From a virus, in IMG/VR virus record IMGVR_UViG_3300025141_000410, positions 1 to 33,271 of that record: a stretch of 33,271 nt of DNA. One strand, written 5' to 3'. Below the pieces are notes generated by a model, which ran no database searches, had not been told where the DNA came from, and worked only from the letters and a program-made list of their open reading frames with translations. Every line of letters begins with the position of its first letter. Positions within the stretch are counted from its first letter, which is position 1. Below, piece after piece: positions 3,551 to 28,049 of the stretch. Made by a program: the position numbers and the translations under genes.

Positions 3551-3817
3551 TTACTCCTTAAGAATCCCCACAATGTGATTTTCTAATACTAAATAGACGC
3601 CACCTTCGCCAAAATCTACTTCTTCGATCATATGAGACAGAACAACAACCTGTTGGCCCGGGCCAATGGGGGGTTTAACATCCGGAGAAATAGAAATAAT
3701 TCTTACTTTTTCATATTTCTCCACCTTTTGATAATCATCAGGCAGGGCAATAAAACTATTACTCTCGCGTGGTGTTCTCTCGATCAATAAATATCTATTT
3801 CGTGGCTCAAATTTCAT
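3551..3817 (-). CDS. groES: GroES-like co-chaperonin (gp31-type)
   Basis: The 88-residue product follows the GroES layout. An N-terminal strand RYLLIER is followed by a flexible loop with a hydrophobic tripeptide IAL (residues 23-25) in the place of the GroES mobile loop that docks onto GroEL. A GPGQQVVV turn resembles the GroES 'vGD.V.f' region, and the closing strand YLVLENHIVGIL matches the GroES C-terminal strand. Phage co-chaperonins such as T4 gp31 and RB49 CocO replace host GroES on host GroEL, typically for capsid protein folding. No GroEL is present here, so host GroEL would be the partner. The start is ATG with GGAGGAAAT just upstream, 11 bases after the reductase stop. T4 gp31 is longer; this size is closer to cellular GroES. 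Confidence 0.8.
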   Translation of the reverse strand: MKFEPRNRYLLIERTPRESNSFIALPDDYQKVEKYEKVRIISISPDVKPPIGPGQQVVVLSHMIEEVDFGEGGVYLVLENHIVGILKE

Positions 3818-3828
3818 ATTTCCTCCAA

Positions 3829-6057
3829 TTATTTACTTCCCCGCAGGGCCTCTAGGTATTCTGTTGGCATCTCACAGGCTCCGCCGGCACAGGCGGATTC
3901 TGATTCAAATTTTACATTGTTCTCTTCTTCGCACATCGATGTCCAATCGACATCTTGATATTCTTGGGCTAATTTTTCCCACAATTTTAAGTTATAAACA
4001 TCTTTTAGGCAGTAGGTCATATTCCGGGTGTTACCACCAAAGTGACTATCTGCGAACTTAATTGCGGCTTTAGCCCACTCTTGTTTAACTGGGGATGCCT
4101 CGTGTAGTGGCTCGCCAACTCCCAAGAGGCAGTCGCATGCGGCCCACAAATCTCCAGCGAAAGAGGTGAGTGCCCGCTCGATGACGCCAGAAGCAAAAAA
4201 AGAACCGGGACCATACTCTCGAAGGATATCATTTGGATAAGGGACAGCACAGAAAGGGGCCTGGGGATAATCTTTGTCTCCGGAGTTTGGGATTAGGGAA
4301 ATTCCAGCAAAATACTTTCTATTCTTATAAATGTAGTCGGCGATTTCGTCCCATTCGTTCTCTCGAATATGAATGGTATTGGAAACATTGTGACTTAGCC
4401 ATGGCTTGGCACACAAATCTTTGTTGGTTCCGTATCGGACCCAGTTCTGTTGTGTTAATTTGACACTTTCCAGTAGTCTCGATGCATCAATTTGATTTTT
4501 TGTCTTGGCGCCCACGGGGACTTCACAAAGAAATGTAATGACTTCTGTTACACCATTTGGATCCCAGACGGATTTTTCCACGGCGCGATGGTTAAACTTT
4601 TTAAAGTGCTGGACTGGATTCTCTTGCACATTTGCCTGGACTCGGCGGAAATATCTTTTAGCATGGTGAGGATGAATCCCCGAAGCAGTACCAAGAATAC
4701 AGCTCGTTGATCCCGCCGGTTTTACACAGGTTGTTCTGGCGGCTTGATTAATGCCGATAACATTTGCTACATATTTATTTGTCTCTTTGACGACTTTTGC
4801 GCCGTCGCGTTGAACTTGTGCGTCAAAAAGAGTTTCCGGGTTATCCATCATGCCAGTAATTGACACGCCTAAAAGGGATTCGCGTCGTGTAATTCTCTCT
4901 GTCACTTCTCCCAAATAAGGGAAGCTAGTATATGCCGACTGGAGCGTGCCAATAATAGCAGCGGCGCGGCAGGCGTTGTGAAAATTCTCTGGAGTGTTTG
5001 CCTTCTTGCCATTGATTTCTGTCAGATTGCAGAACTGCCAACCAGATTCGCCGGTTTCAATGTCTACGGGGTATAGTCCAATCTCCACACACGGATTGAA
5101 CCCCATCTCCGTATTGTCCGCCCAGACAAACCCGGGCTCCCCATATTCGCGGACCCATTCCATTAGTTGGTTGAAGGTCTCTTTGGTAGTTTCATCTCTT
5201 ACGAGCAGGGCGCTGTTGTTTGAGCGGCCTCGCTGGGGATTTTCAACGAACCAATTGCCAGTTTTTGCTGTGGCCATCTCTTGGTCATCCGGGGAGAATA
5301 GGGCAATTGTGGCAGAGCGACGAACTCCGCCAGATATCACAGCATCAGCGGCATGCATGATAATATCATAAATATTGATGGGACTTAGGCGGGCTCGGTT
5401 TTCGTAACCTAGGCTGGCTTCGAATACTTCTCGGATTTTTTCCAAAGAGCGCTCAAGGCCGGCTGGGCCCGGTGCTTTTGCGCCAGAACTCAAGGGTGAG
5501 CCTGCGGGTCTAATCTGAGAATAATCAAATTCAACGTTGAGGCCGACATACTCATCAAACTCAGGGCCTCCTCCGAAATAACTATTCACTAGAACGCCTA
5601 CTGCGTCGGCCCATCCCTCAATTGTATCCGGAACGACAAAAATTTTAGGAGGAGAAATCCTGCTTGGGCGTGCAGCTAACGGGAGTTGATCTATATGGTG
5701 TTTTTGAACAGAAAATCCGATGCCACAGCCACACAAAAGAAGATACATTAGCTCCTGAAAGGACCTAGTGCGGTTGATGTGACCGAAACCACAGTTATAT
5801 ACGCGTGCATTATGTTTAAAGATTGGTGTTCCACCGAACTGAAGAATTCTTTGAGATCCCAAGACCTCCTTCTTTTGAACTGCCGATTCTGCCTCCTCTA
5901 TCAGATAGAGGGCCTCTTTATTATCTTTAAACTTCTCCCTATGCATATCAAAAACCCGCGTTACTTGTTCTTTCCACGTCTCGCGTCTTTGGCTTTCTGG
6001 CAAATATTTTGCATATTTTGCAATTCTTGTATATTCTTGTAGTGTGTTAATTGACAT
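3829..6057 (-). CDS. nrdJ: Adenosylcobalamin-dependent (class II) ribonucleotide reductase, monomeric RTPR type
   Basis: This 742-residue enzyme reduces ribonucleotides to deoxyribonucleotides using coenzyme B12. Visible key residues are Cys89 (VYNCGFGHI), the catalytic group Asn321-Cys323-Glu325 (FNPCVEIGL), Cys343 (QFCNLTEI) as partner of Cys89, and a C-terminal CAGGAC pair (Cys723 and Cys728) that would re-reduce the active site. The conserved DAVISGGVRRSA segment is at about 238-249. Length and cysteine layout match the single-chain Lactobacillus leichmannii RTPR rather than two-subunit class I enzymes. No small subunit or NrdG activase is present, as expected for class II. The ATG follows the helicase stop immediately (TAG then ATG), with GGGGGA inside the helicase end. 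It lies in the replication block and would supply dNTPs for phage DNA. Host or environmental cobalamin would be required. Confidence 0.93.
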   Translation of the reverse strand: MSINTLQEYTRIAKYAKYLPESQRRETWKEQVTRVFDMHREKFKDNKEALYLIEEAESAVQKKEVLGSQRILQFGGTPIFKHNARVYNCGFGHINRTRSFQELMYLLLCGCGIGFSVQKHHIDQLPLAARPSRISPPKIFVVPDTIEGWADAVGVLVNSYFGGGPEFDEYVGLNVEFDYSQIRPAGSPLSSGAKAPGPAGLERSLEKIREVFEASLGYENRARLSPINIYDIIMHAADAVISGGVRRSATIALFSPDDQEMATAKTGNWFVENPQRGRSNNSALLVRDETTKETFNQLMEWVREYGEPGFVWADNTEMGFNPCVEIGLYPVDIETGESGWQFCNLTEINGKKANTPENFHNACRAAAIIGTLQSAYTSFPYLGEVTERITRRESLLGVSITGMMDNPETLFDAQVQRDGAKVVKETNKYVANVIGINQAARTTCVKPAGSTSCILGTASGIHPHHAKRYFRRVQANVQENPVQHFKKFNHRAVEKSVWDPNGVTEVITFLCEVPVGAKTKNQIDASRLLESVKLTQQNWVRYGTNKDLCAKPWLSHNVSNTIHIRENEWDEIADYIYKNRKYFAGISLIPNSGDKDYPQAPFCAVPYPNDILREYGPGSFFASGVIERALTSFAGDLWAACDCLLGVGEPLHEASPVKQEWAKAAIKFADSHFGGNTRNMTYCLKDVYNLKLWEKLAQEYQDVDWTSMCEEENNVKFESESACAGGACEMPTEYLEALRGSK

Positions 6058-7419
6058 CTATTTTCCCCCATCCTTCTTAGTTTTCTTATATAATTTAATT
6101 AATTTCTTCTCTTGTCTCTTCTTGGCTTCCTTCTTGACTTCCCCGATAGTTTCACCAGTTGAGGACTGAACATTTATTGTTACATTCGAAGTGTCCATAT
6201 GAATTGGATAAATTAGTCCATCGGGACCATTCCTATTCTTAGCAACAAAAATACGTCCAGTGTTAGCCAATTTGTCTTCCGCCGTTCTGGATATTGAAAA
6301 AATAAAATCTGCAACAAAACATTTGTTAAAAGCCTCCGATATTGATTCCATTGTAATAACTTCGGCATTCAATCCAGAACGATTTGTTTGAGAAGCAGTC
6401 CAGACACAACAACTGTATGTCTGAGCAATTGCTCGAAGCTGTTCATAAATAGTCTCCAGTTCGTGCCTTTTCTCTCTTAATGTTGAAATTGGTCGTAATA
6501 AATCTCCATAGTCAACAAGAACCATGTCGGGCTTAAACCCCCGAGTCATTAATTTCTCTATATGGTTTTTCAGTGTCTGACAACTAGCTGACTTTGTGGG
6601 ATATTCTTTTACGATTAGTTGGCCCTCAATCATCTGAACCTTTTCGTAAATTTCTTCTTTGAAGTCCTTCAAATCGTTAAGGGGAACGTTGGTTATACAA
6701 CTATCGAAACGAGAACCAACGACCGTTTCTGATAATTCCAGCGTATAATATACTACGTTCTTTCCCGCCTTTAATGCTTGGGCGCCAATGTGAACAAGAG
6801 CCATACTCTTTCCGGCGCCAGTGGGAGCAATAACTACCCCCAACTCCCCTTGGCCTAGGCCCTGATGAGTGATCGCGTCCAGCTCTTCCCAGCCGGTACC
6901 AATGGGGTTTCTGGCCTTGAATAAAAAGCGTTGTTCAAAGTCCTTCACATAGTCATGGCCAAAATTAGAGTCCGATCCGAGCTTCAGCGCTTCATTAATA
7001 ACTTGCGAAATCTCATCAAAAGAAGAATTTTTTAATAACTTCACCGACTTGAGCATCGCCTCTTTCAATTTCTGCTTTCTGCAAAAGTCAAGAGATGTCT
7101 CAATAATATACTCGGAATCTTCGATTCTCGTCTTAGAGATTCTAGCGAAAAAGTGCCTAAGCTGTTGCTGGACCGATTCATTTTCCGTGCCGATCTCTGT
7201 CCGCAAAATAGAGGTCATAATCTTTTCTGTCGGATGGACAGAATACTTTTCCCGATATTTCTTGACCAGTTGAACAAATGTCTGAAGGTATTTAAGCTCC
7301 AGAAAATTAATATTCAAAACCTCAAACATCTGATCTGCGAATGGTCGGTCGACCAAGATCAGGTGACATAAAGTTTCCTGAAAGTCTTTGCCATATTGGC
7401 TAAAGTCTTCCTTTGACAT
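6058..7419 (-). CDS. Replicative DNA helicase, DnaB/gp41 type
   Basis: This 453-residue RecA-fold hexameric helicase is expected to unwind DNA 5'-3' at the phage fork. A DnaB-like helical N-terminal domain occupies about residues 1-150. The Walker A motif is APTGAGKS (198-205), followed by the DnaB-type helix and strand NVVYYTLELS (221-230), and Walker B is MVLVDYGDLL (299-308). A glutamine-containing WTASQTNRSG segment (motif H3/H4) comes later, followed by ISRTAEDK and a C-terminal lysine-rich tail. No primase domain is fused and no DnaG/gp61-like primase is in the window. The start ATG has AGGGGG upstream. An exact TTGACA-N17-TATATT promoter ends about 20 bases before the ATG, giving a leader of roughly 14 bases. 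Confidence 0.93.
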   Translation of the reverse strand: MSKEDFSQYGKDFQETLCHLILVDRPFADQMFEVLNINFLELKYLQTFVQLVKKYREKYSVHPTEKIMTSILRTEIGTENESVQQQLRHFFARISKTRIEDSEYIIETSLDFCRKQKLKEAMLKSVKLLKNSSFDEISQVINEALKLGSDSNFGHDYVKDFEQRFLFKARNPIGTGWEELDAITHQGLGQGELGVVIAPTGAGKSMALVHIGAQALKAGKNVVYYTLELSETVVGSRFDSCITNVPLNDLKDFKEEIYEKVQMIEGQLIVKEYPTKSASCQTLKNHIEKLMTRGFKPDMVLVDYGDLLRPISTLREKRHELETIYEQLRAIAQTYSCCVWTASQTNRSGLNAEVITMESISEAFNKCFVADFIFSISRTAEDKLANTGRIFVAKNRNGPDGLIYPIHMDTSNVTINVQSSTGETIGEVKKEAKKRQEKKLIKLYKKTKKDGGK

Positions 7420-7439: not shown

Positions 7440-7468
7440 AATATAACATGAGATTCTGAACCTGTCAA
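7440..7468 (-). promoter_or_regulatory. Sigma70-type promoter for the helicase
   Basis: Minus strand: TTGACA (7463-7468), 17-base spacer, TATATT (7440-7445) preceded by ATGT, as at the SSB promoter. The -35 overlaps the stop codon of the exonuclease gene. The predicted start near 7433 gives a leader of about 14 bases that still contains the AGGGGG ribosome binding site. Confidence 0.82.
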
Positions 7469-8424
7469 GCTTTACTTGAAATTCTTTTGAATGTTGAAAA
7501 TAGGTCGGACGTATTCCAGTTTCCAAAGCCATCTTCAGCCATGCGCTTAATTACTTCTGTTTTGTTGAACCGAGGCTCGAAATTATCAAGAGCGTGCTTT
7601 ACTCTGTTTTTCGCGTCTAGGGACATTGATGGGGAATATAATTGCATAATTTTATAATTTTCCGCGATTATCTTCTCTGCATCACATATCGAGGAAAAAG
7701 CCTTTAAGCCCGTATTGTCGTTCTCACAAAACTCGATAAGATCATCAATGGTTACAGGTTTTTCTTCTGCGAAAAATGGCATTCTTTTTGAGATTGTTCC
7801 CAGACCCACACCCTTGACTCCCGGTAGGTTATCGGACTTATCGCCGGCCATTGCACGCGCCAGTGCAAAATTTGTGGGGTGAATCTTAAATTCCTCTAGG
7901 ATCCTAGGCTTATTAACAAACTTTTTTTGAATTGGGCGATAAAGCACGGTCTCTTCGTCGCATAGCTGGAAGAAATCTTTATCACTTGAAATGATAATTT
8001 TTTGCCAGCCCTTATAATTAGGGGATTGAGTGATATATGAGATAACATCATCTGCTTCAACCCTTTCTGCCATCAATTGAATGACTGGCATATGATTTAG
8101 CATTTCCATAAGCCTGAATTGCTGCCACACCTTGTTTTGCATCTCTTCGTCTTTTGTTAGGACTCGGACGTCGCGATTGAGGCGAATCGGCTTTCGGCCC
8201 TCCTTATAATTTGGGTTAACCTCTTTTCTTTTTTGAGATCCGCCGGCGCCGTCCCAAGCAATAATAATCTCATCTGGCTTCATCTCTCTACAGAGCTTTT
8301 GTAGAATCCCGAGGAACCCCTTGTAGCCTCCGATTGGCTGGCCGTTCTTAGATAGGCTTGGGTTAACAATGTACGCTCGGAAATACGCATTGAGCGCGTC
8401 AATAATCATTACTCTTTTCATCAT
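7465..8424 (-). CDS. 5'-3' exonuclease / flap endonuclease (FEN/RNase H type)
   Basis: The 319-residue protein has the FEN superfamily layout: Asp9 in VMIIDALNAYFR, IIAWDG near residue 55, the metal-binding cluster VEADDVIS, SSDKDFFQL, and the helix-three-turn-helix AGDKSDNLPGVKGVGLGT (DNA binding). It resembles T4 RNase H and bacterial Pol I 5' nuclease domains. It would remove RNA primers and flaps from Okazaki fragments, which fits a polymerase in this genome that lacks any 5' nuclease domain. A perfect-consensus promoter lies immediately upstream, so a transcript from it would begin at or within a base or two of the ATG. The stop codon lies inside the -35 box of the helicase promoter. Confidence 0.92.
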   Translation of the reverse strand: MMKRVMIIDALNAYFRAYIVNPSLSKNGQPIGGYKGFLGILQKLCREMKPDEIIIAWDGAGGSQKRKEVNPNYKEGRKPIRLNRDVRVLTKDEEMQNKVWQQFRLMEMLNHMPVIQLMAERVEADDVISYITQSPNYKGWQKIIISSDKDFFQLCDEETVLYRPIQKKFVNKPRILEEFKIHPTNFALARAMAGDKSDNLPGVKGVGLGTISKRMPFFAEEKPVTIDDLIEFCENDNTGLKAFSSICDAEKIIAENYKIMQLYSPSMSLDAKNRVKHALDNFEPRFNKTEVIKRMAEDGFGNWNTSDLFSTFKRISSKA

Positions 8425-9055: not shown

Positions 9056-10162
9056 CTAGTCTTCTGTTTCATAAAAATCTTCTGCTTTACCTTGGCGATT
9101 ATCAAACTTGTAAATTACTTCTTCATCGATGATCTGATAAACTCTTTGTCGGAACTTATCATCCTGCATCTTTTCAACCCACTTGGTTGCTTGGAACTTT
9201 TCGGTTGATCCATCCTCAAATACCATCGTATACCAAGCGCCGGATTGTAAAATATTATCAGAACCCTTCACGGCATCGAAGAGAGACTCGTCATCTTGAA
9301 TGACAACCTCATCGCCGCCCCACAAAATTCGGAAATTACATCGTCTGCCGGCAGTACCGAAGCGAGACTTCTCTAGCTTTACCTTGACTTCGGAGCCAAT
9401 TCTAAATCCGTTCTTATCCAGGACAAAGCTGGCTTTTGCCTTGCGGCCTGTGAGCCATATTCGAAGAGAATAGGCATAGCTCATGGCCTTTCCGCCAGGA
9501 GTAACATAGGGAGTCGTCATGGCCTCCGATGCAATTCTGGTGATATTTGTTTTTAACTGATTCAACACTAGCAGGGTGGCGCCTGCATTTGCGATTTGAA
9601 TTGTGAGTTTTGACATTGCTCGGGCAAGGATTCTGGCCTTCATTGCCATCTGTGACATGGGGTCGAAACTACCCTCCACTTCGCTTTCGCAGGGAGTCAA
9701 AGCCAAAGAGTCCCAGATAAACAACATCTGACTGCCAGAGCCCAAAAGCTCTTCAATTGTTTCTAAAACAAATTCTACCGAAGAGGCTTGGATATATAAA
9801 AGCCTATCTAGATCGCAGCCCGCGTTCGATAAAAAAGATGGATCGATGGCCGACTCTGAATCAAAATAAACGACATCAATCCCCATCTTTTGGGCGTTTG
9901 CTGCGATTTGCGCGGCCATATAGGATTTTCCTGTTGCCTCTAAGCCGGCTATCTCGACCACTTTGCTAACAGGAATTCCTGCTAGTTTTCCTCGACAGAC
10001 GATTGAATCAAGCCAGCGAGAACCAGTGGGGATCCACTGTGTTACTTCTGTCGGATTCTCTTTTTTGAGGTCAAAAGCCACATTCATACCGGCTTTTTTA
10101 TTGACAAGCTTCCTCATTTCTTCCATAGATAGGGCGCCCGTTGTTTTTGACTTTCTTGGCAT
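9056..10162 (-). CDS. uvsX: UvsX/RecA-like recombinase
   Basis: This 368-residue RecA-fold strand-exchange protein is expected to form filaments on ssDNA for recombination-dependent replication and repair. Walker A is GLEATGKS (residues 73-80). It is followed by VVYFDSESAID with a conserved acidic residue, Walker B QMLFIWDSLAL (about 145-155), and the L2-region pattern LVLNQLKTNITR. TPYVTPGGKAMSYAYSLRIWL matches the RecA/UvsX segment around the subunit interface. The C-terminus is acidic (YETED), as in RecA and UvsX, where it modulates DNA binding. It lies downstream of the ssDNA-binding protein, its usual partner. No UvsY-like mediator is recognised; the small basic protein between them is a candidate by position only. 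Confidence 0.95.
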   Translation of the reverse strand: MPRKSKTTGALSMEEMRKLVNKKAGMNVAFDLKKENPTEVTQWIPTGSRWLDSIVCRGKLAGIPVSKVVEIAGLEATGKSYMAAQIAANAQKMGIDVVYFDSESAIDPSFLSNAGCDLDRLLYIQASSVEFVLETIEELLGSGSQMLFIWDSLALTPCESEVEGSFDPMSQMAMKARILARAMSKLTIQIANAGATLLVLNQLKTNITRIASEAMTTPYVTPGGKAMSYAYSLRIWLTGRKAKASFVLDKNGFRIGSEVKVKLEKSRFGTAGRRCNFRILWGGDEVVIQDDESLFDAVKGSDNILQSGAWYTMVFEDGSTEKFQATKWVEKMQDDKFRQRVYQIIDEEVIYKFDNRQGKAEDFYETED

Positions 10163-10396: not shown

Positions 10397-11176
10397 TCAG
10401 CTTCCAATTAATTCGTTAAAAGCACTAACTACGTCTGGTACCGCGTTATTTGTGGTTGTGGCGCCACTATCCACATAAACCTCGGAATCATCTCCTTCCA
10501 AAGAGGAGATAAACCCATCCAACGCAGCCTGGACCTCTTCCTGTGTCTTTTTCGGAAACAGGCCGTCGATATTTGGAATATTGCTCATCAAGCGCGAACA
10601 CTCTTCATCGCCACCGATGGCGTCATCGCAAAGCGGTGAAGTACGTCGGCGAGGAGTTAGCGTGGTCTTGGGAAAATTCGCTCCCGGTGGCTTTCCATAA
10701 GTGAGGGTCAGGTCGGTTCCGTCATCGACATCTGTAATATCTCCGTACTCTGGATTGAGCACCAAATTAAGCAAAGACTCATAAGCAGTTTTACCATAGC
10801 CCCAAATTCGAATACCTTGGTCTTCTTCTGTTCGAACCATGACAGGTGAAAAGAAGCGCTGTCGGGGACTAAGGTCCTTGGCAAGCTTCATTGTGTCAGG
10901 ATCTTGTGTTTTGTTGAATTCTTTCCAGAGCTGGTCCTTAAAAGTACAGATTGGGCAACTTTCTCCATGATTCTTGTTTGGACAAAGAAGACCACCCCTT
11001 TGATCTGGGCCCAAGTTGTAGTGGAACCAATAATCCTTAAACGGGTCGCCATCTTCCGTTGGTACAATACGAATTACTTGAGTACCATCTTGCGGGCGCC
11101 AAAAAGACCCTCCCGCTTTTCCGTTGTTTTTTACACTGTCGAGCCGTGCTCGAATTTTTGCGATATCTAATGCCAT
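10397..11176 (-). CDS. gp32-like single-stranded DNA-binding protein
   Basis: The 259-residue product matches T4 gp32 in layout. A basic N-terminal segment (MALDIAKIRARLDSVKNNGK) is typical of the cooperativity domain. The core OB-fold carries a zinc site: Cys65, His70, Cys74 and Cys77 in CPNKNHGESCPIC. An acidic C-terminal part (EGDDSEVYVDSG) would contact replication and recombination partners. It coats ssDNA at forks and recombination intermediates and works with UvsX, the helicase and the polymerase. The start has TTAAGGAG ten bases upstream. A strong sigma70-type promoter overlapping a 17-base palindrome lies about 75-105 bases upstream, and a UUCG hairpin follows the stop, both consistent with high and separately controlled expression. 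Confidence 0.9.
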   Translation of the reverse strand: MALDIAKIRARLDSVKNNGKAGGSFWRPQDGTQVIRIVPTEDGDPFKDYWFHYNLGPDQRGGLLCPNKNHGESCPICTFKDQLWKEFNKTQDPDTMKLAKDLSPRQRFFSPVMVRTEEDQGIRIWGYGKTAYESLLNLVLNPEYGDITDVDDGTDLTLTYGKPPGANFPKTTLTPRRRTSPLCDDAIGGDEECSRLMSNIPNIDGLFPKKTQEEVQAALDGFISSLEGDDSEVYVDSGATTTNNAVPDVVSAFNELIGS

Positions 11177-11288: not shown

Positions 11289-11543
11289 TTATTTTTCGAA
11301 GCTTTCAAGACTCTCAATATCAAAAATCTCGACCTCTCCAATAATCGTGTTTCTATTAAAAACGCGAAATCCTTGCTTATCTAAATCCCAAACAAGATTA
11401 CTTCCTTCAGTAAGGCTTGTTTTTTTACCAGTACCCTTCGTTTGAGAGATGAAAAATCCTTCTGGAAGATCTTTGAGATTAACAAACCTCATCGTTCTTA
11501 AGCTTCCGTCTTTCTTTCTAAAAATTCCTAAATTTGCTTTCAA
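11289..11543 (-). CDS. Small SH3/WYL_2-like protein (DUF2693-like)
   Basis: This 84-residue beta-rich protein starts with LGIFRKKDGSLRTMRF and ends with a strand set VWDLDKQGFRVFNRNTIIGEVEIF. This 'KKDG-x-x-R ... VWD-x-x-K-x-G-x-R-x-F' layout is the one I associate with the WYL_2/DUF2693 family of small phage barrels; the assignment is from memory. The start is TTG and overlaps the stop of the tubulin-like gene as TTGA, with GGAAG just before, so translation is coupled. An internal promoter about 180 bases upstream, inside the preceding gene, could express it separately. Its role is unknown; a nucleic-acid or protein-binding barrel is plausible. Confidence 0.7.
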   Translation of the reverse strand: MKANLGIFRKKDGSLRTMRFVNLKDLPEGFFISQTKGTGKKTSLTEGSNLVWDLDKQGFRVFNRNTIIGEVEIFDIESLESFEK

Positions 11544-12379
11544 CTTTCTTCCTGTGTTTGAATGTATGGTGTTCTCGCTATGACATATCCCAGATCATAT
11601 TCATAATCTGTTGAATAAACTGCATATGTCACACTGAGGTCTTCCGATGTCTTTGATTTAATTTGTGACTTAAGGCGGCCGAATAAACTGCTATCTGTCT
11701 TTAACTTGTTCTCGTTTATACTATAAATATAACACTTATCTCGGACCTTGTCAAGAGAAAAAAACATTTTTTCTTCATTTTTTTCCGCGTCAAAGATTCC
11801 AATCGTGACAATGCGATGAGTTTCTTTTGATTTTTCTATCTTACCGATTACCGGACTTGTATTATTAAATACATTTATCATGTGAAACGTAGATGCGAAG
11901 ACTTCATTTAGCTTGTCATAATATCCAATAATTGGGGCGCCCCCAAGGACAAAGTCCAGACGAGAATTCGAAATTAAATATATTTCATCAAAAACGGCAG
12001 AGCGCGTATATTCCTGAAGAACTCCAAATACAACTCTGTCTTGCATCTCCTGAATTTTGTTGAGGAGCTGGCATTCTGGCTTAATATAAATAATCGAAAT
12101 TGGCAAGTTTTTGATTTTCTCAAGAATTCTTAAAGAAGCGCACGAGATCTTGCCAGAGCCTCCGACAATAAAAAAAGTTTTTCCCTTAATACCCTTAAAG
12201 AATGCCTTTAGTTTCGGAAAATCGTGCTTTTCATATTCCTCGGCAGAATCAAGTTCTGGGGCATTATAGCACCCCTCTCCCTCGATACCCACATCGATTT
12301 TAAATATTTTATATTGAGGGTATTGAGAAAGTGCGCCTGCCATGGCACAGCCAGCCTTACCTAAGCCAATAATATTCAT
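11540..12379 (-). CDS. Divergent tubulin/FtsZ-like protein (N-terminal GTPase-fold)
   Basis: The N-terminal half of this 279-residue protein tracks the tubulin/FtsZ GTPase domain. A first strand and glycine loop NIIGLGKAGCAMAG (residues 2-15) sit where FtsZ has GVGGGGGNA. Strand KIFKID (24-29) follows. FFIVGGSGKISCASLRILEKI (69-89) sits where FtsZ has the signature GGGTGTGAAP, followed by strand ISIIYIKPE (compare VAVVTKPF). FDEIYLISNSRL (130-141) sits where FtsZ has VDSLITIPNDKL, then a helix YYDKLNEVFASTF with the conserved Asn (158). The G-box is degenerate (GGSGKIS), and no clear NxDxxD/E catalytic T7 loop is visible, so GTPase activity and polymerisation are uncertain. The C-terminal part is short. 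Some phages encode tubulins (PhuZ, TubZ) that position phage DNA. It starts at ATG 12379 with GGAGGA upstream, two bases after the polymerase stop. An alternative is another Rossmann-like nucleotide-binding protein. Confidence 0.55.
   Translation of the reverse strand: MNIIGLGKAGCAMAGALSQYPQYKIFKIDVGIEGEGCYNAPELDSAEEYEKHDFPKLKAFFKGIKGKTFFIVGGSGKISCASLRILEKIKNLPISIIYIKPECQLLNKIQEMQDRVVFGVLQEYTRSAVFDEIYLISNSRLDFVLGGAPIIGYYDKLNEVFASTFHMINVFNNTSPVIGKIEKSKETHRIVTIGIFDAEKNEEKMFFSLDKVRDKCYIYSINENKLKTDSSLFGRLKSQIKSKTSEDLSVTYAVYSTDYEYDLGYVIARTPYIQTQEES
11726..11754 (-). promoter_or_regulatory. Internal sigma70-type promoter in the tubulin-like gene
   Basis: Minus strand: TTGACA (11749-11754), 17-base spacer, TATATT (11726-11731) with TGT just before it. 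All three elements match the SSB and helicase promoters although the site lies inside coding sequence. A transcript would start near 11719 and could express the 84-residue gene and beyond. The -35 is within CTTGACAAG, the same palindrome core as at the SSB promoter. Confidence 0.7.
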
Positions 12380-12381
12380 AG

Positions 12382-13563
12382 TTATCCTCCAACCTTCTGT
12401 AAGTTTCCAAAATTTTGACCGACACCTACGTTAACCTTGAATTTTCCGAGTGCCGTATCGGAAAAGATATCTATAATTTCGGGTATTTTTTCCTTGTCTT
12501 CTACCGAAAGGTCCAATACAATAGAATCATGGATCGGGAAAGCAACATATGATTTACATCCTTTTAAATAATTAGATACTTTTATCATTTGTCTCAAAAC
12601 ATTTTCTGCACATGTACTCTGAATGATGTAGTTGAGGGCCGTTCTTTCTTCGGATGGAATAACCTTGTTCCAAAAGGTCGTCACTTGACCCTGAGTGAAG
12701 TACTTTTGTACCACAGATTCTCTATCATATGCGAGGGTGCACAGGCGGTCATCGCTTTCTGGATTGTAAAGCCAAGCAAAAATTCTCTTTTTGGCCTCAT
12801 CTCTCGTAATTGAGCCTTGGAAAATATTCTTTATATTCCACTCATGAAGATCGCCCTCGGGCTGCCTCTCTCCCTGTAAGGAGAGAAGCGTCCTTAACTC
12901 TGCCGCGTTAAAATCAAGTTCCACAAAATAATCGTTATGAGGTTCGATCACACAGCGAAACTCTTTCTTTAGGGTTAGGATGGGGAAGCTCTTTGGGGAC
13001 GTAGTTAGACGCCCGGTCTTTGTTCCGTAGATATTAAATTTACAAGAAGGCTCGATCTTGTTTAAGTTTTGTGCGAACTTCCTATGGCCGGCCTTAAACA
13101 TAGATAGATTTTTTGTATTCAGATTGAGCCTTCGGTATTTCATGTCTTCAATGATCTCAACTAATGAAACTAGATAATCATAGTTTTTAGGCCTTTTATA
13201 ATTCTCGAAGACATGTTCACAAATTTGATTTTTAATGTGACAGAATTCCATGAGAAATTTTCTAGGAACTAAGTCGAAAAAGCAATTATTATCGAGCGAT
13301 ACGCGGCTCGTTGCGAATGACTTAATGAATGCCTTAAATTTATCGCTAATGTCTCTCCAGCGAGGCTGTAGGGCCTCCGGGCACACCTCGTCCAGGGTCT
13401 TACCCCCACAGTACAGATTGGCGTATTCGATTTGGCGACCTTTTAGAAATCCCGAGTATGACCAAGTATGAGATAGGCCTGTTGGCAGCCTCTCACCGAA
13501 AACGAGGTCATCTAGATATAGGCCGATGCAATCTTTCTTGTCATCAAGTGTCTGAAAAAGCAA
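12382..13563 (-). CDS. polA: Compact family A DNA polymerase (polymerase domain only)
   Basis: The 393 residues cover just a Pol I-type palm and fingers with a reduced thumb. TGRLTTS (183-189) matches the TGRLSS segment. Motif A is ELDFNAAELR with Asp217. Motif B keeps the E. coli Pol I spacing exactly: Arg254, Lys258, Phe262 and Tyr266, with Asn where Pol I has Gly. NYIIQSTCAENV matches the motif before the last palm strand. Motif C is HDS (345-347), where most family A enzymes have HDE. No 3'-5' exonuclease domain is present and no exonuclease-like gene precedes it. The start is TTG at 13563, with AGGA six bases upstream and no in-frame ATG nearby. A promoter lies 155-183 bases upstream, inside the previous gene. 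It would be the replicative polymerase working with the UvsX, SSB and helicase genes downstream, unless another polymerase exists outside the window. Confidence 0.88.
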   Translation of the reverse strand: MLFQTLDDKKDCIGLYLDDLVFGERLPTGLSHTWSYSGFLKGRQIEYANLYCGGKTLDEVCPEALQPRWRDISDKFKAFIKSFATSRVSLDNNCFFDLVPRKFLMEFCHIKNQICEHVFENYKRPKNYDYLVSLVEIIEDMKYRRLNLNTKNLSMFKAGHRKFAQNLNKIEPSCKFNIYGTKTGRLTTSPKSFPILTLKKEFRCVIEPHNDYFVELDFNAAELRTLLSLQGERQPEGDLHEWNIKNIFQGSITRDEAKKRIFAWLYNPESDDRLCTLAYDRESVVQKYFTQGQVTTFWNKVIPSEERTALNYIIQSTCAENVLRQMIKVSNYLKGCKSYVAFPIHDSIVLDLSVEDKEKIPEIIDIFSDTALGKFKVNVGVGQNFGNLQKVGG

Positions 13564-14900: not shown

Positions 14901-17900
14901 CTATTTTGGAACAGGAATGTCCACGGCGGCGCCGGTGGGCTTGCTTGAACAACCACCACCCGATTCAGATGCGGCGGCGGCGTTGGGTGTTTCTCCATCG
15001 CCGGAAAATTCAAAAAGGGCGCGGATTTTTGTCTCGTATTTACCACTCTCAACAAAGCTTTCCACTTTTGTTATAACGTGATATCCCCCCAGCCCTAGTT
15101 GGTTCGCCGGCGTGTTCGGATGAGAGGGATTTCCTAGGCCTGTGCCTAGACCAATTGGATTCACATAAATCATCTGGCCTGGCCAGAAGATGGTATTTCC
15201 AATCAAGGTCAAGTCGACATTATAAACTGCTGCAAGTTGAGCCAGGGGGTTTAGCGCGTCTTGCTGCATTCTCGCCTCGCGAAGGTAGGGCGCGTCTACT
15301 TTTGAAAAACTCACCTCTTTTACAAGACCCCGGTCGCGGCCAAGGAAAAGGTGAAAAATACCCTCAAGGGCGTCCCTCTCCTCTCTTGTCTCCGAGCTAT
15401 CTATGGGGGGCCCAAGGCGCCTGTAGGCATTTGCGTCAATTAAATAAAATATGGAGACATGAAAAGAATTTTTTAAGGTTTGTTCATGCACCTGCGTGCG
15501 CTTAACTAGCGATTTTGGCCCTTTGGTTTCCCAATGACCAAAATTAAGATGAGCGGCGGGGAAAAAGTCGCCGACATCCGGAAATATCCTGATAAGTTCC
15601 AGCGGGTTGAGGCCCAGGTGATTTCTTGCAATTGCGGGAGGCAGGTTCCCCTGGATGCTTGGAAGGTTTGTGGAAGTTGTTTTAAGTATCAAATTCGGAA
15701 TTTCATAATAAGCACCATCATACGACTGTCTCCACGCTTTGCGGAATTTTGCGCTGTCAAAGCATTTTTTATTTAGAAACGGGACTACGACATCTTGTAA
15801 AAAATCTATTAAAAAAAGATGAAGTGGATATTTCTGGAGTGCTGGGTCGACAACCCTCTTAATATACCACTGATTGAATATCTCTAAGGAAATAGGGACC
15901 GAAGCTAGGTTAACGTATGAAGACTCTTCGGAGGCCTTTATCGTCAGTGGGTGCGCGGGGTCGCCCGACTGAACGATCTCGGCATCATGGAGTTTTTTTT
16001 GTTCCTCAATGGTGCGCTTGCCATCAGCTGATCCGGCCGGTATTCTTACCTCTTTTCTTGTCTTTGTCATAATAAAGTCACCAAAGAGAAAAACTAAGTT
16101 TCTAAGTTCTATGCCGCTAATAAGACTAAGCTGCTGACTCTGATTGGCAGGGTCGCGAGCATTTTTCGCGAATTTAACAACGGTATTTATTAAATCTCCA
16201 AAATAAAACCACGGGATATACATTGCTTCCGGGTCGTTGGGATCCACAATAAACCCCATATCAGCCAAGTCATCGGGAGTTTCATCCGGAGTCTCATCTG
16301 AGGTTGGTGTTCCGCCTTCCTCTTCCTTCTTTTTCCGCCTTTCTTCGGCTTTTGTTGCCGGGTGATTATCCGGATATGTGTCTACTAGTCTTTTTTCGAG
16401 CGAAGTCTTCAAACCGTCCTTCAGATTGTCACGGGTTGCTTTTATGCTTTTTAGAACGTCCTTCTTGCTAATTCTCAGCGCGTCTGCGGGGCCTTTGGAT
16501 TCGAAATTTGCTCTACCCTCCATTTCTTTGCCGGCGATGGCCTTCCTGAGATCTTCTATACTTTTAATCTTTGTAAAATATATCTTATCCTGCAATTCGT
16601 TTATTATAGCCGAAGAGAGGTTATCTCTTGAAGTTTCTGTAATCTCTACAATTCTGCTGCGGGCCGTATCTTGAGCCGATTCTGATCCGCAAGTTTTCTT
16701 TAGATTCTCAATTTGGGCTAGGGCTTCATTGACCTTCTCTTTTATCTTCGGGGTTGATAAAATATCGAGCCTCGGGTCGGAAGTCAGTGCCTCCATCCTA
16801 GCTCGGTAGGTGATTGTTAGCTCAAATGTGCCCTCCTGAGTAAAAGAAAATTCATGGTCAATAAGCGTTAGAAAAAGCGACATCTGTTGAGTTGCTATCG
16901 ATCGTGGGAGATTCCTTGTAGTGTGTTCCAGTTTATTATTTGGGGCCCAACCAACAACTGCCTTAACTTCGTAAAACCTCGGATCATAGACGTTTTTATC
17001 CGATATTGCTTTTTTCTCTTCTTTGGGGGAGCTTAGGGCGAGGTCGTCTTTACCATCGCCTGCCGAACGCTCTACGCGTCCAGCGAGAATTTTCTTTTTC
17101 TTTTTGGATTTTTTAGGCTCTTTCGGCGCAGGGGTCTTTTTTGACGGGGGCCTCAATAATAAATCCTCATATTTAAAAGAGTGAGTTTTTCCGCTTATTG
17201 TATCATAGCCCGTATGGGCAGCGAGCAGATCATCAAAACTCTGAAAATACAATACTAATTTTGCTGTTATATCGTTTCTTACTGTTGCTGGGTTTGTTCC
17301 ATTCATTTGCCAGTCGAAACTCTTTATTCCTACGCCACTTCTGGAGTGGAAGGGGGAGTCGCCCGTGCCGCCATCAAAATAAAGCTCGACATCCTTATCT
17401 ATTTTATTTGTTTCTTCGTTGAAATATGTCTTATAGAGGCGAATCATCGGAGTTAATTGTGAGGCCTCGTGTGTTTTAATGTCCATAAAAGAATTTGAAT
17501 AAGGGTCATAAGTCATCTTGTTGATGGAGGTACCGTGCGAGGCATATGCCAAATAGACAGACTCATCGTACCTCTTCGCGAACACGACCGGGTGTTCTTT
17601 TATAGCGTCTTTGGCAATGTGGAAGACTTCGTTCGGCTGGTGATTGGCCGTGAACGAGCCGATGTTTAGTCTTAAAATACATTGCGTAGATTCTCGGAGT
17701 TGGGAATTCCAGAATTCGTCATCTTTGTTTGCGAGGGCCGTTTGTTGCATAAAATCATCGGCGCTTAACTCGGTGCCGTGTCTCAACTTTCTCACGGCCG
17801 CGTCATAGGCCATGGCTGCAAGCAGAGATGCCTCGTCGTTTCCTGTTGGGCGGTCGCCCAATTTCTCGATGGCGGCTTCAATGGCCGCTTCCTCGTTTTT

Positions 17901-18551
17901 CCGGGCGCTATCCGTGTTTTGATAAATATATAAAAGAACACCCTTGAAACTAACGACTAGTGGCGCCTCTTGTGGCTTGATAAAAGCATATCTGCTGCTC
18001 CAGCCAGACGAAGTCCAAGCCTTGGAAACCTGCGGATCTAAATATGCCGGGAGATATTCTGGAGGGAGATTGATTATCGCACCAAGAAGATAGAAAAGGG
18101 CCTTCATGAAGTGACCATCTTGGGATTTGTCTTTTTCAACCACCCATTGATCAAGATTTGCGCGCAGATCCGCGATTCTTTCTGCCCGGGGAGGGTCGTC
18201 GGTGATACCGGCGATCACATTGCTGATAAATTTGAGTGATGGAATTTTATCGCCATCCCATTCCTTACCAATAAACTGACTAAAGTAGCTATTATACGAG
18301 GCTACATTATAATTTTTAGGCTTTCCGCTCGAATCTGGGGCTTTTGCTATTTTGCTCCAAGCTGGAATTTGCAGCGCCTCGTCTTCCTGAAGAGGGCCTG
18401 CTAGAGTAGCCCACTTCGAAGCACCTGGTTCGATTGCCTTTTCGAGGAATGATTGCTCGTTGGGAGAAAACTTTCCAAACGGTTTATTTTCCTCGTATTT
18501 GTTCTCACTGTACCAGTGAGATAAGTAAAATGTAGATCTGTCATTGGCCAT
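14901..18551 (-). CDS. Large baseplate hub candidate (gpD/gp27-like C-terminus)
   Basis: This is a 1216-residue protein. Two charged linkers break it into parts: a Lys/Pro/Ser stretch (KKTPAPKEPKKSKKKKK, near residue 480) and a Glu/Pro/Thr stretch (EERRKKKEEEGGTPTSDETP, near 730-750). The last 150 residues contain a LysM-like pattern (LAQLAAVYNVDLTLIGNTIF then WPGQMIYVNP) and YHVITKVES plus a beta-rich end. This resembles hub proteins of contractile tails, where such segments precede a final strand set. It ends in an Ala/Ser/Gly tail. Context (tape measure, tube-cap-like and LysM proteins immediately before it) supports a baseplate location. No lysozyme or peptidase active site is recognised. 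The start is ATG with GGGAGG upstream. The hub assignment rests on position and the C-terminal pattern only. Confidence 0.75.
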   Translation of the reverse strand: MANDRSTFYLSHWYSENKYEENKPFGKFSPNEQSFLEKAIEPGASKWATLAGPLQEDEALQIPAWSKIAKAPDSSGKPKNYNVASYNSYFSQFIGKEWDGDKIPSLKFISNVIAGITDDPPRAERIADLRANLDQWVVEKDKSQDGHFMKALFYLLGAIINLPPEYLPAYLDPQVSKAWTSSGWSSRYAFIKPQEAPLVVSFKGVLLYIYQNTDSARKNEEAAIEAAIEKLGDRPTGNDEASLLAAMAYDAAVRKLRHGTELSADDFMQQTALANKDDEFWNSQLRESTQCILRLNIGSFTANHQPNEVFHIAKDAIKEHPVVFAKRYDESVYLAYASHGTSINKMTYDPYSNSFMDIKTHEASQLTPMIRLYKTYFNEETNKIDKDVELYFDGGTGDSPFHSRSGVGIKSFDWQMNGTNPATVRNDITAKLVLYFQSFDDLLAAHTGYDTISGKTHSFKYEDLLLRPPSKKTPAPKEPKKSKKKKKILAGRVERSAGDGKDDLALSSPKEEKKAISDKNVYDPRFYEVKAVVGWAPNNKLEHTTRNLPRSIATQQMSLFLTLIDHEFSFTQEGTFELTITYRARMEALTSDPRLDILSTPKIKEKVNEALAQIENLKKTCGSESAQDTARSRIVEITETSRDNLSSAIINELQDKIYFTKIKSIEDLRKAIAGKEMEGRANFESKGPADALRISKKDVLKSIKATRDNLKDGLKTSLEKRLVDTYPDNHPATKAEERRKKKEEEGGTPTSDETPDETPDDLADMGFIVDPNDPEAMYIPWFYFGDLINTVVKFAKNARDPANQSQQLSLISGIELRNLVFLFGDFIMTKTRKEVRIPAGSADGKRTIEEQKKLHDAEIVQSGDPAHPLTIKASEESSYVNLASVPISLEIFNQWYIKRVVDPALQKYPLHLFLIDFLQDVVVPFLNKKCFDSAKFRKAWRQSYDGAYYEIPNLILKTTSTNLPSIQGNLPPAIARNHLGLNPLELIRIFPDVGDFFPAAHLNFGHWETKGPKSLVKRTQVHEQTLKNSFHVSIFYLIDANAYRRLGPPIDSSETREERDALEGIFHLFLGRDRGLVKEVSFSKVDAPYLREARMQQDALNPLAQLAAVYNVDLTLIGNTIFWPGQMIYVNPIGLGTGLGNPSHPNTPANQLGLGGYHVITKVESFVESGKYETKIRALFEFSGDGETPNAAAASESGGGCSSKPTGAAVDIPVPK

Positions 18552-24518: not shown

Positions 24519-27500
24519 TTAATCATCAAAAGATGCTCCCGTTCTGGTGATTACAAAATCAACTGCGATAAACTCGATTGCTCTAGCCGGCTTGAGGAAG
24601 ATTTTAGCATACATAATGTTTTGATCTACCAAGTCTGGCGTTGTGGTGGTGTCGTCTAAGATAACCCTCCATTCGCTCAATCCCAAACGAGACTGAACGC
24701 TGGCTAAAAATGGCCTAACTTCTCCCAAGAACCTATTCCAAGTTACTTGGACATTTTGATCAAACAAAATTCCTGAAGAAATTCTTGAGACCTGTTTCTT
24801 AATGTAGATCAGTAGTCGACGAACATTAATTCGGTCGAGCGCGGAGCGAGTAACTTGAAGCGTTTTTTGTCCGAATACGACCAGGCCTTCCGATGGGAAA
24901 GAGGCGATTGGATTAATATTTGCTTCATATAGTTTATCTCTATCTTTAGAGGTAAGTCTCTTAGTGATGTTGGTTACTGGCCATCCGGCTGAACCGTCTG
25001 TTAAGCCACCGCGATTGAATCCTGCGGGTGCAAACCAAACCTCTGATTTAGCCTGCGAAGAGGCCAGAGTACCCAGAGCAACTACAGATGGAGGAGCCCA
25101 TAACAAGTTGTTGGAGATGGTGTCTAGCAGCTGAACCCATGGGTAGTAGGTGCATGCGTAAGAGGAGTTGATCCCCCTGTCTCTCAGGCCGTCGACACAT
25201 TCAGAAATTGTGAATTGGTTTCTTTGTTCGAATGTGTTAGTCGAGTCGGTGAACGGAGTGTATACATCCGGCAAATCGATGATGGCGAGTGCATCACCTC
25301 TGTCCTCGCATGTATCTATCACATGTTGAGTTAAAGTTGAATTGGTCACACCTGGGATCGTCACGATATTGCATTCGACGAATTCTGGATCCTTTATTGT
25401 GTCCACAGCTCTCTTGATGGAGTTATAAGCATAGTTTGCAGTATCTAAGTCGCCGCCAGCGCTGAGAATTCCATTTCTAAACGGCTCTGCCTCTGTAATG
25501 TCGAGACCATCAAAGCCACCATAAAGAGGTGCTACAATTTTGTCGTAGCCGGCGCTCAAGATTGACTGCCAAGATCCCTGGGCCGTGGCCGAGTTGCCAT
25601 TCTTCCTCGCATCCTGCTTCCAGAATGATGTGGCCGAGCCACTAGTTACGACGTCGTCAAGAGTTACGGTCCAGCTATATTCCACCAAGTCATCGCTGAT
25701 GCCCGCCAAGGTATCTTCGGAGGTTACCCCATCGGGGCGTCTCCAGAGGTAATCCCCCCAAGAAGAATCTTTTCTGGATGAATTTCTGGAAATTGTTGAC
25801 ATTGGCCCGAAGCACGCATCAGTTGGATCGGCGAGGCCGCCGTCAGAGGCAGAAAGTCTCAAAAGTTGTTTTGGAAAGTCAAGCTGCAATCCGGTAACTG
25901 TACAGGTACCGTCGCCCAACCAAATTCCGTCGGCTGGACAAATCTCTCCGGCTGGCGCTGTGGCACCCGGTGTCGAACCAGAGGCCAACACAAAGGCGTT
26001 AGCTGGGATTGCACCAGATTTGGTGTAATTGATTGTTTTAAATCTGAGAGGACCAGTGACACCGAAAGGAAGCATTTTTGGATTAAGACCTGAAACATCT
26101 GGATTCATGTCCACTCTAATATACTTTGACTTGTTAGCGTATTGGCCGTATTGTCTCAGTACTCTCTGTGTATAATCAAAGCTATAATAGGTATCTCCGA
26201 TGACTCTTCCTATGAAGTTTTCAGAGGCGGGGTTTAGGTTTACGTTTGTCCACCTTTCCACTATCTGTATAACATTATCTCTATCGGAGGCTGCTCTAAC
26301 TACAATACTAAAAGAGCCATATGGGTCCGACTTGTTTGTAGATGCCTTTATATCCTGAACTGCAATCTTAAGATTGTTCTGGATCCATCGTCCGCCGTCT
26401 AGCGAAACGAACCGGAATAATTTTGTCATGGCTGAAGGATCAAAGGCTGCGAAGTCGTTCGATAAATCTTGAGAAAAGAAATAACCGGTTTTGGCTGTCT
26501 GAAAGTCGATGCCCTTGTAATCGTCTCTATCTAGGGAACCTGATGCCAAGGGGAGCAAGACTGCTCGGGATGACCTATCAAGGCCGCCGAGAGCTTCTTC
26601 AACATCTGTCTCGAAAGACTCTCCGAGCCAATATAGGTTTTCTCCGTTTTTAAGGGTCGTTGGGTTGACGAATGCATCGTTGGTTAATTGTGGATTTGTA
26701 TTCAGAACACTCCGAATATTCAAATCACTGTCTCTATCAAAATTAAATGCAGTTGAAAGCGTGGGGCTTCCACCTGGGGTGGTTGCCCCAGTTGTGCTCG
26801 CGATTGCGAAACCTAGTCCCGCAACAGCATCGCCTCCCGTAATATCAATTATTGATGACGTTCCGTCTTTGGAAAGCGTTGTAAGGACAAGGTCTGGATC
26901 TGCATTTTGTGTTACAGTTAAGCCAGCGATTGCTGCCTCGATGACCGCTTTTGCCTCTGCAAAAGTTACCTGTGCATTGTTGGCAACGTTTCCTGCGCCG
27001 TTTGCAACACCAATCGAGATTCCGGTGTCTGTCAATGTGCCGGCGGTGCCGGCCGTTACGTTAACTTCCGATGAAGATCCGGCAGAATCTGAACGAATAT
27101 CAACCGCGCCGGCGTTAAGAAGGGCGCCGCCTCCAGTTAAAGTGGCATTAATTTTATCAGCCACCAAGAGGGCGCTGTTTTCTGAGCCGTCAAAGGTGAT
27201 GATCTGGCCGGCGCCATTATCTATTTCTATCGTAATCGTTCCGGCGGATCCGAGGAATGCGCCGGCGCCGCCGGCTTTGACTGCTTGAGTGGCTGTCGTA
27301 AAGGTCGCTGTTGCAGGTGCGCCGCTGTCGACCTCGATGGTAATATCGTTGGCTCCAGCAGATGCGTCCCAACCCGGCGCGCCGGCAGTGGTACCCTCGA
27401 CCGAGGCGGCCGTGGTCGTGGATTGATCCTGCGTATTAAAAATGTTTAACTTAAATTGTGAATTTGCGCCTTCGGATTCAATTGCGGCACTGTTGCCTAC

Positions 27501-28049
27501 AAAAGACGCCTCGCCGCCTGAAATGGTCTTGAGTACTTCGCCACCTAGAGCAATGGAGCCCGAGTTTACATATATAACGGCACCAAGAGTACCTGTCGCG
27601 TTTATGGCTGCTGAAGAACTTGGGAATACAAAGATTCCATATGCTCCACCTGCCGTAGACGGAGAGCGAGTTGCATCAGTTCTCCATCCGGAGAGGGCGA
27701 TACCAGCTCCGTCATTCTCAGGGTTGTCCTCTCCTAAGAGGCGTACCATCGTAATTGGGCCGACATCGGCCTTCAAATAGGCCATGGCGGCGTAAGCTGC
27801 ATATGTTGGTGCTGTGAGATTTCCATCTCTCCAAACATCCCCAGATGGTCCTTCGCCGGGAATGGGATTTCCAAACACCTGAACGAATTCTGAAGGAGAG
27901 CTTACAGAGACTGGGCGCATGGTGGGGCCCATTCTAGTCCTTCCGATAACAACTGGGCCAACTGCCTGCTTGATCGCAGGGAGTTGTGAATTGTCGACTT
28001 CACTCAGAAAAATACCCGGTGAAACAAATTTAAATTTCTTAACTGACAT
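24519..28049 (-). CDS. Tail sheath protein with a large inserted domain
   Basis: The 1176-residue protein is almost twice the size of T4 gp18 (659). The N-terminus (FVSPGIFLSEVDNSQLP, VVIGRTRMGPTMRPV) and the C-terminus (IKKQVSRISSGILFDQNVQV, FVITRTGASF) are clearly of the contractile-sheath family. Residues about 130-440 form an extra region rich in Gly, Ala, Ser and Thr. It contains repeated strand patterns such as ITIEIDNGAGQIITFDG and VDIRSDSAGSSSEVNVTAGT, which recall the inserted Flagellin-IN type modules of flagellar hook and phage sheath proteins. This part would sit on the outside of the tail and may stick to the cell surface or matrix. It starts at ATG 28049 with AAGGAG upstream, with an ACTATTTA motif 49 bases before the ATG. 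Confidence 0.92.
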   Translation of the reverse strand: MSVKKFKFVSPGIFLSEVDNSQLPAIKQAVGPVVIGRTRMGPTMRPVSVSSPSEFVQVFGNPIPGEGPSGDVWRDGNLTAPTYAAYAAMAYLKADVGPITMVRLLGEDNPENDGAGIALSGWRTDATRSPSTAGGAYGIFVFPSSSAAINATGTLGAVIYVNSGSIALGGEVLKTISGGEASFVGNSAAIESEGANSQFKLNIFNTQDQSTTTAASVEGTTAGAPGWDASAGANDITIEVDSGAPATATFTTATQAVKAGGAGAFLGSAGTITIEIDNGAGQIITFDGSENSALLVADKINATLTGGGALLNAGAVDIRSDSAGSSSEVNVTAGTAGTLTDTGISIGVANGAGNVANNAQVTFAEAKAVIEAAIAGLTVTQNADPDLVLTTLSKDGTSSIIDITGGDAVAGLGFAIASTTGATTPGGSPTLSTAFNFDRDSDLNIRSVLNTNPQLTNDAFVNPTTLKNGENLYWLGESFETDVEEALGGLDRSSRAVLLPLASGSLDRDDYKGIDFQTAKTGYFFSQDLSNDFAAFDPSAMTKLFRFVSLDGGRWIQNNLKIAVQDIKASTNKSDPYGSFSIVVRAASDRDNVIQIVERWTNVNLNPASENFIGRVIGDTYYSFDYTQRVLRQYGQYANKSKYIRVDMNPDVSGLNPKMLPFGVTGPLRFKTINYTKSGAIPANAFVLASGSTPGATAPAGEICPADGIWLGDGTCTVTGLQLDFPKQLLRLSASDGGLADPTDACFGPMSTISRNSSRKDSSWGDYLWRRPDGVTSEDTLAGISDDLVEYSWTVTLDDVVTSGSATSFWKQDARKNGNSATAQGSWQSILSAGYDKIVAPLYGGFDGLDITEAEPFRNGILSAGGDLDTANYAYNSIKRAVDTIKDPEFVECNIVTIPGVTNSTLTQHVIDTCEDRGDALAIIDLPDVYTPFTDSTNTFEQRNQFTISECVDGLRDRGINSSYACTYYPWVQLLDTISNNLLWAPPSVVALGTLASSQAKSEVWFAPAGFNRGGLTDGSAGWPVTNITKRLTSKDRDKLYEANINPIASFPSEGLVVFGQKTLQVTRSALDRINVRRLLIYIKKQVSRISSGILFDQNVQVTWNRFLGEVRPFLASVQSRLGLSEWRVILDDTTTTPDLVDQNIMYAKIFLKPARAIEFIAVDFVITRTGASFDD

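Follow-up and report, generated by a model that had tools for sequence, protein, structure and literature searches.

A predicted, much reduced tubulin-fold protein encoded in the replication operon of uncultured T4-like phages

The window (the whole stretch of DNA analyzed, 33,271 nucleotides of IMG/VR virus record IMGVR_UViG_3300025141_000410) contains a replication operon, in which a gene for a 279-amino acid protein, the target of this study, follows the DNA polymerase gene. The features of this operon, with the evidence for each, are as follows.

12382 to 13563, minus strand: family A DNA polymerase (PolA), 393 amino acids, TTG start, upstream of the target (PF00476, E 8.6e-14; phrog_17, E 1.9e-19)
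12386 to 12390, minus strand: Shine-Dalgarno sequence GGAGG of the target gene (sequence)
11540 to 12379, minus strand: target, predicted tubulin/FtsZ-fold protein, 279 amino acids (open reading frame from ATG; relatives; AF2 model; PDB fold matches)
11289 to 11543, minus strand: 84-amino acid WYL_2/Sm-like protein (PF10902, E 1.8e-4, below cut-off; phrog_1086, E 6e-6)
10397 to 11176, minus strand: gp32-like single-stranded DNA-binding protein, SSB (PF08804, E 2e-13; phrog_1192, E 3e-28)
9056 to 10162, minus strand: UvsX/RecA recombinase (phrog_97, E 7e-57)
7465 to 8424, minus strand: exonuclease (phrog_107, E 1e-32)
6058 to 7419, minus strand: DnaB-like replicative helicase (phrog_19, E 3e-80)
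3829 to 6057, minus strand: ribonucleotide reductase, RNR (phrog_367, E 6e-105)

On this minus strand, the target ATG is located 2 bp beyond the end of the polymerase gene (12379 vs. 12382-13563), and the 84-amino acid gene, which overlaps the target stop codon by 4 bp, sits between the target and SSB. The first-pass annotation had placed the target between DNA polymerase and SSB and away from any centromere-like array; both statements hold, with one small gene intervening before SSB and with no centromere-like repeats or iteron array detected in the 9-15 kb region of the window. The polymerase of this T4-like myovirus is a very small family A enzyme (393 amino acids, PF00476 only). A GroES-like co-chaperonin is found at 3551-3817 (phrog_3188, E 0.001). 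Elsewhere in the window, a 1216-amino acid open reading frame with no PHROG match (14901-18551) separates baseplate-like genes from the replication operon. The tail sheath protein (24519-28049; 1176 amino acids) is matched as a sheath mainly in its C-terminal half (residues 633-1174), suggesting large insertions, and a 1538-amino acid open reading frame (28638-33254), the N-terminal part of which matches uncharacterized PHROGs, contains imperfect in-frame tandem repeats of 54/108/165 nt.

The open reading frame at 11540-12379 is a real gene. The motifs initially quoted for it were all present in the translation: GLGKAGC at residues 5-11, FFIVGGSGKISCAS at 69-82, IIYIKP at 96-101, IYLISNSRL at 133-141, and a helix with a conserved Asn (N158). 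Since they are conserved across 135 family sequences (52 clusters at 70% identity, on which conservation was computed), these motifs are not due to chance. No Pfam, PHROG, or NCBIfam model matched the 279-amino acid protein above noise; PF00091 gave no match to it, and 0 of 13 records reached the gathering score of that model. The Pfam Tubulin model was matched weakly, below cut-off, by 5 of 55 family members (best E 0.0014). When cultured-phage records were searched by tblastn, the protein itself gave one chance match only (E 5), and three divergent family members gave no match. The family has been overlooked so far because no PHROG, and no Pfam or NCBIfam model above its cut-off, recognizes it.

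The gene was sought in related phages, as had been proposed in the first-pass annotation. A first scan of viral contigs gave 70 relatives, at least 523 were confirmed in IMG/VR with the alignment as the query, and an extra divergent clade was recovered with the member L067. Thirteen columns were invariant in the alignment of 55 family sequences. Among the 52 clusters, G7, Y23, L83, Y98, P101, Q122, R126, N138, and N158 were 100% conserved, and G5 (98%), D29 (96%), and G76 (96%) were nearly invariant. The family is large, uncultured, and core to its phages. Searched with E. coli FtsZ alone as the query, viral contigs yielded nothing. Separately, at least 69 viral contigs of up to 101 kb contain a canonical FtsZ ~50% identical to that of E. 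coli, either phage-borne or bacterial carry-over.

An AF2 model of the protein, built from the 55-sequence alignment (pLDDT 92.9, pTM 0.91), consisted of two domains in the arrangement of FtsZ: a Rossmann-like N-domain, the core helix H7, and a C-terminal sheet domain. The best 50 matches in a PDB fold search were all FtsZ or TubZ (E 6e-12 to 2e-10; TMq 0.65-0.73), and their alignments spanned both domains at full length (300+ columns); a TM of ~0.7 with an rmsd of 4-5 Å represents a distant match. The best matches in the viral structure library (BFVD) were phage proteins named FtsZ, cell division protein, or tubulin. The closest one listed, A0A6J5RW92 ("FtsZ Cell division GTPase" of an uncultured Caudovirales phage; TMq 0.79, E 3.5e-11), differs in its length of 452 amino acids and its identity of 11%, and was compared by structure alone. 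When the family profile was aligned with seven FtsZs using hhalign, the match was weak taken alone (E 0.003, probability 10%); the register was colinear with FtsZ in the same order through T4-S5-S6-H6-H7, in agreement with the motif order first described. The alignment-based model and the structure search thus bear out the description of a reduced, divergent relative, and the 279-amino acid protein, as modeled, almost certainly belongs to the tubulin/FtsZ superfamily.

The elements of the nucleotide site and of the regions in which the protein departs from FtsZ were mapped as follows.

12347 to 12367, minus strand: T1 glycine loop GLGKAGC, residues 5-11 (conservation in 52 clusters)
12293 to 12301, minus strand: T2, K27-I28-D29 vs. 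N43-T44-D45 of FtsZ (ungapped alignment by eye)
12134 to 12163, minus strand: T4/G-box equivalent GGSGKISCAS, residues 73-82 (hhalign and conservation)
12077 to 12079, minus strand: P101, T5-region proline (100% of clusters)
11966 to 11968, minus strand: N138, equivalent to E. coli FtsZ N165 in T6 (100% of clusters; hhalign register)
11864 to 11923, minus strand: core helix H7, residues 153-172, with invariant N158 (DSSP of the model; hhalign register)
11816 to 11863, minus strand: residues 173-188, at the place of FtsZ T7 (GxxNxD) and H8 (conservation; DSSP)
11570 to 11815, minus strand: reduced C-terminal domain, residues 189-270, mainly beta with one long helix at 232-243 (DSSP)

T1, likewise matched to FtsZ by eye, was also well conserved at L6 (96%), A9 (94%), G10 (96%), and C11 (92%), and D29 in T2 is by eye the counterpart of FtsZ D45, invariant in the seven-FtsZ alignment. 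The hhalign register puts N158 on E. coli FtsZ N186, a position that we take to be the base-contact site of H7 (B. subtilis FtsZ D187, β-tubulin N228). The guanine-contact Asn pair, N138 and N158, was invariant in all 52 clusters; N165 of E. coli FtsZ, with which N138 aligns, contacts guanine in T6 (PMC8456036). Conserved positions were enriched in the mapped site (12 of 41 vs. 4.1 expected; hypergeometric P ~1e-4), a value that is indicative only because the site was hand-picked and overlapping evidence was used to name it.

Other parts of the FtsZ machinery have been lost. T4 is two residues shorter than the GMGGGTGTG stretch of FtsZ, and the family carries a GSGxISG-like sequence in place of the FtsZ signature GGGTGTG ([SAG]GGTG[SAT]G); T3 (GLGAG in FtsZ) has no counterpart. 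In the region of T7 (residues 173-188), no column was 85% or more conserved and no conserved acid was found among the 52 clusters, so that the initial description of a degenerate G-box with no visible NxDxxD/E loop was accurate. DSSP assigned no H8 helix to the same residues of the AF2 model, a short hairpin stands where H9 would be, and the protein, which stops nine residues past the last strand, has neither a C-terminal helix nor a tail. The fold and the retained Asn pair argue for guanine-nucleotide binding, which we regard as probable from these residues, while the absence of T3, T7, H8, and H9 speaks against hydrolysis of the canonical kind and against a canonical protofilament interface. 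Between binding without canonical hydrolysis and complete loss, the former appears likelier, since both Asn residues that contact guanine are kept, as are T1 and T2. Catalysis could come from another residue; some family members have E or D at residue 175.

Among known tubulins, FtsZ gave the best fold match in the PDB, extending across both domains (TM up to 0.73), and shares the T1 glycines, the T2 Asp, the T6 guanine-contact Asn, and the position of H7. However, identity in the structural alignments was only 11-15%, T3, T7 (GxxNxD), H8, H9, and the C-terminal peptide of FtsZ are absent and T4 is shortened, and FtsZ belongs to a division cluster, whereas the present gene belongs to a phage replication operon. 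TubZ (Bacillus plasmids; phage c-st) has the same fold (TM 0.66-0.71) and is likewise encoded by an extrachromosomal element, but its C-terminal helix and tail and T7 have no equivalent here. Family searches in this region of the window revealed no TubR-like neighbor as in a TubZRC cassette, the neighbors being PolA, the 84-amino acid gene, SSB, and UvsX. PhuZ of the phiKZ/201phi2-1 jumbo phages is also a phage-encoded tubulin-fold protein; it retains the catalytic aspartate of T7 and ends in a helix and tail (PMC3678025), whereas our gene sits in 120-191 kb contigs with a T4-type gp23 capsid. The one PhuZ sequence compared, that of 201phi2-1, gave no profile match to the family (hhalign E 0.11 over 16-25 columns). 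The existence of degenerate tubulins is not in itself a novelty, because divergent members of the superfamily exist in the cellular, multi-domain FtsZl/Tubulin_2 families with PF13809 (Makarova and Koonin 2010; PMC2875224); no match to PF13809 was reported for any of the 55 family members. By the features examined (T4, T7, and the C-terminal region for FtsZ; the cassette for TubZ), the protein is neither FtsZ nor TubZ, and its sequence reveals no kinship with PhuZ. A comparative survey of jumbo phages recognized two types of phage FtsZ/tubulin, PhuZ and TubZ, both serving positioning or segregation (PMC7824862), beside which the present family would be a third kind.

The gene order of related loci, on one strand, was baseplate genes, a 435-amino acid gene, PolA, the tubulin-like gene, (the 84-amino acid gene), SSB, UvsX, exonuclease, DnaB, and RNR. 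With overlapping loci treated as separate, PolA was upstream of the tubulin-like gene in 135 of the 142 loci with enough flank, and SSB was close downstream in 156 of 167; several loci with no close SSB carry it further downstream. The 84-amino acid gene was detected in 37 of 147 loci. In Mantel tests, for which 82 complete loci were available, the distances of the tubulin-like protein correlated with those of PolA (r 0.907) and SSB (r 0.859) as well as those of PolA did with SSB (r 0.828), with 0 of 999 permutations in each case, so that the gene is passed on together with the replication module. A role in replication seems fairly likely from the synteny and from the co-divergence with PolA, although a slot beside the polymerase is no proof of a replisome role because phage operons carry regulators too.

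The tubulin-bearing contigs are mostly marine and T4-like: they contain a tail sheath, a gp23-type capsid in all 10 of the long contigs, and 120-191 kb of sequence. Family B polymerase was found in 0 of 8 long contigs, and the T4-type sliding clamp domain in 0 of 11 using PF02916, a single Pfam model with no true positive among the contigs. The only match in genome contigs, CP070664.1 (a WOR-3 MAG), contains phage replication and tail genes between bacterial genes, joined across N runs; it looks chimeric for this reason and gives no host. The nearest cultured operons are those of Flavobacterium phage immuto and, less close, Microcystis phage Mel-JY01. A scan with the SSB of these phages gave 80 immuto-like loci, none of which had a tubulin-like protein near SSB. 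Instead, 76 of the 80 carried an unrelated ~150-amino acid family (hhalign E 0.5 against the tubulin-like protein) with a conserved ILVHRKKESNTLYTINALN motif, lying between PolA and SSB in every locus where PolA could be located; the copy of phage immuto is at L233:1346-1801. Neither of the cultured genomes and none of eight long immuto-like contigs contained the tubulin-like gene or a Pfam tubulin, and the ~150-amino acid family was absent from eight long tubulin-bearing contigs, apart from one stray match (E 0.01) inside a 2,596-amino acid frame. One and the same slot is thus occupied by either gene. The AF2 model of the ~150-amino acid protein was confident (pLDDT 85) and had no PDB match below E 0.1, leaving an identification as RegA unsupported.

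The explanation that we prefer, about as likely as not, is a joint one: the protein is a reduced tubulin-superfamily core component of the replication operon in a large uncultured T4-like myovirus lineage that uses family A polymerase, and would act as a hydrolysis-deficient, guanine-nucleotide-binding replisome scaffold. GTP or GDP would be bound on the N-terminal face and GTP would not be hydrolyzed by the canonical T7 route; from these two properties a nucleotide-dependent scaffold would follow, in the form of a stable dimer, a short oligomer, or a non-dynamic filament, which may organize or anchor the phage replisome, unlike the dynamic PhuZ spindle. The non-hydrolyzing scaffold mechanism, taken separately, is a tentative proposal drawn from the pattern of kept and lost residues.

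The closest rival, which we consider unlikely, is a replisome accessory that does not polymerize: a monomer or dimer sensing GTP/GDP and touching PolA or SSB, for example to aid processivity or regulation, without forming any filament. The lost T7, H8, and H9 make up the bottom half of the longitudinal interface, the protein co-diverges tightly with PolA, a sister lineage of Immutovirus-like phages fills the slot with a ~150-amino acid non-tubulin protein, and no T4-type clamp was found, all as this reading would have it. On the other hand, the clamp result depends on one model, the conserved features of the N-domain are equally fit for a filament, and contact with PolA or SSB is putative. A dynamic, PhuZ/TubZ-like cytomotive filament that positions replicating phage DNA using non-canonical catalytic residues (e.g. 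the E/D at 175) comes next and is improbable: the fold search indicates the same superfamily and phages offer precedents (PMC7824862, PMC13282480), but the T7 region has no conserved acid, H8, H9, and the C-terminal tail are missing, the gene has no centromere-like array nearby, and PhuZ gave no profile match. Last among the functional readings is a decoy for host FtsZ, in which a nucleotide-bearing top face lacking T7 would cap or poison the filaments of FtsZ and stop division. A nucleotide face that looks intact, combined with a defective bottom face, is what a cap might be expected to have; nevertheless, in these mostly marine contigs the gene is core, keeps its synteny, and co-diverges with PolA, whereas genes for host takeover tend to vary and to lie elsewhere, and the sequence is far from any FtsZ, so this reading is very improbable. 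Of the initial suggestions of a pseudo-GTPase, a scaffold, or a decoy, non-hydrolyzing binding thus remains the likelier part, with the kept Asn and T1/T2 in its favor, and the decoy is weakened by the fixed operon place and the co-divergence. Another Rossmann family of the TrkA-N or dehydrogenase type can be dismissed at the level of the model, because the Pfam matches pointing that way are weak (13 of the 55 members match TrkA_N, best E 0.005, and 3 match Sacchrp_dh_NADP, best E 0.0008), whereas the listed PDB matches are all FtsZ/TubZ, full length, and two-domain (E 1e-11). Neither a fold lacking the tubulin N-domain nor a confident dehydrogenase match, which the first-pass annotation had named as contrary outcomes, was obtained, and the tubulin reading survived.

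The preferred scaffold reading, put in its broadest form and with some reserve, is that a catalytically dead, minimal tubulin-fold protein may be a constitutive component of the replisome or replication site in widespread uncultured marine phages. As a strongly reduced branch of its own, core to a large T4-like lineage that is uncultured, the family poses two directly testable questions: whether the tubulin fold is functional without T7-driven hydrolysis, and what role a tubulin has at the replication fork. If the reading is true, this would be the first tubulin at the DNA replication machinery rather than in a dynamic cytomotive filament.
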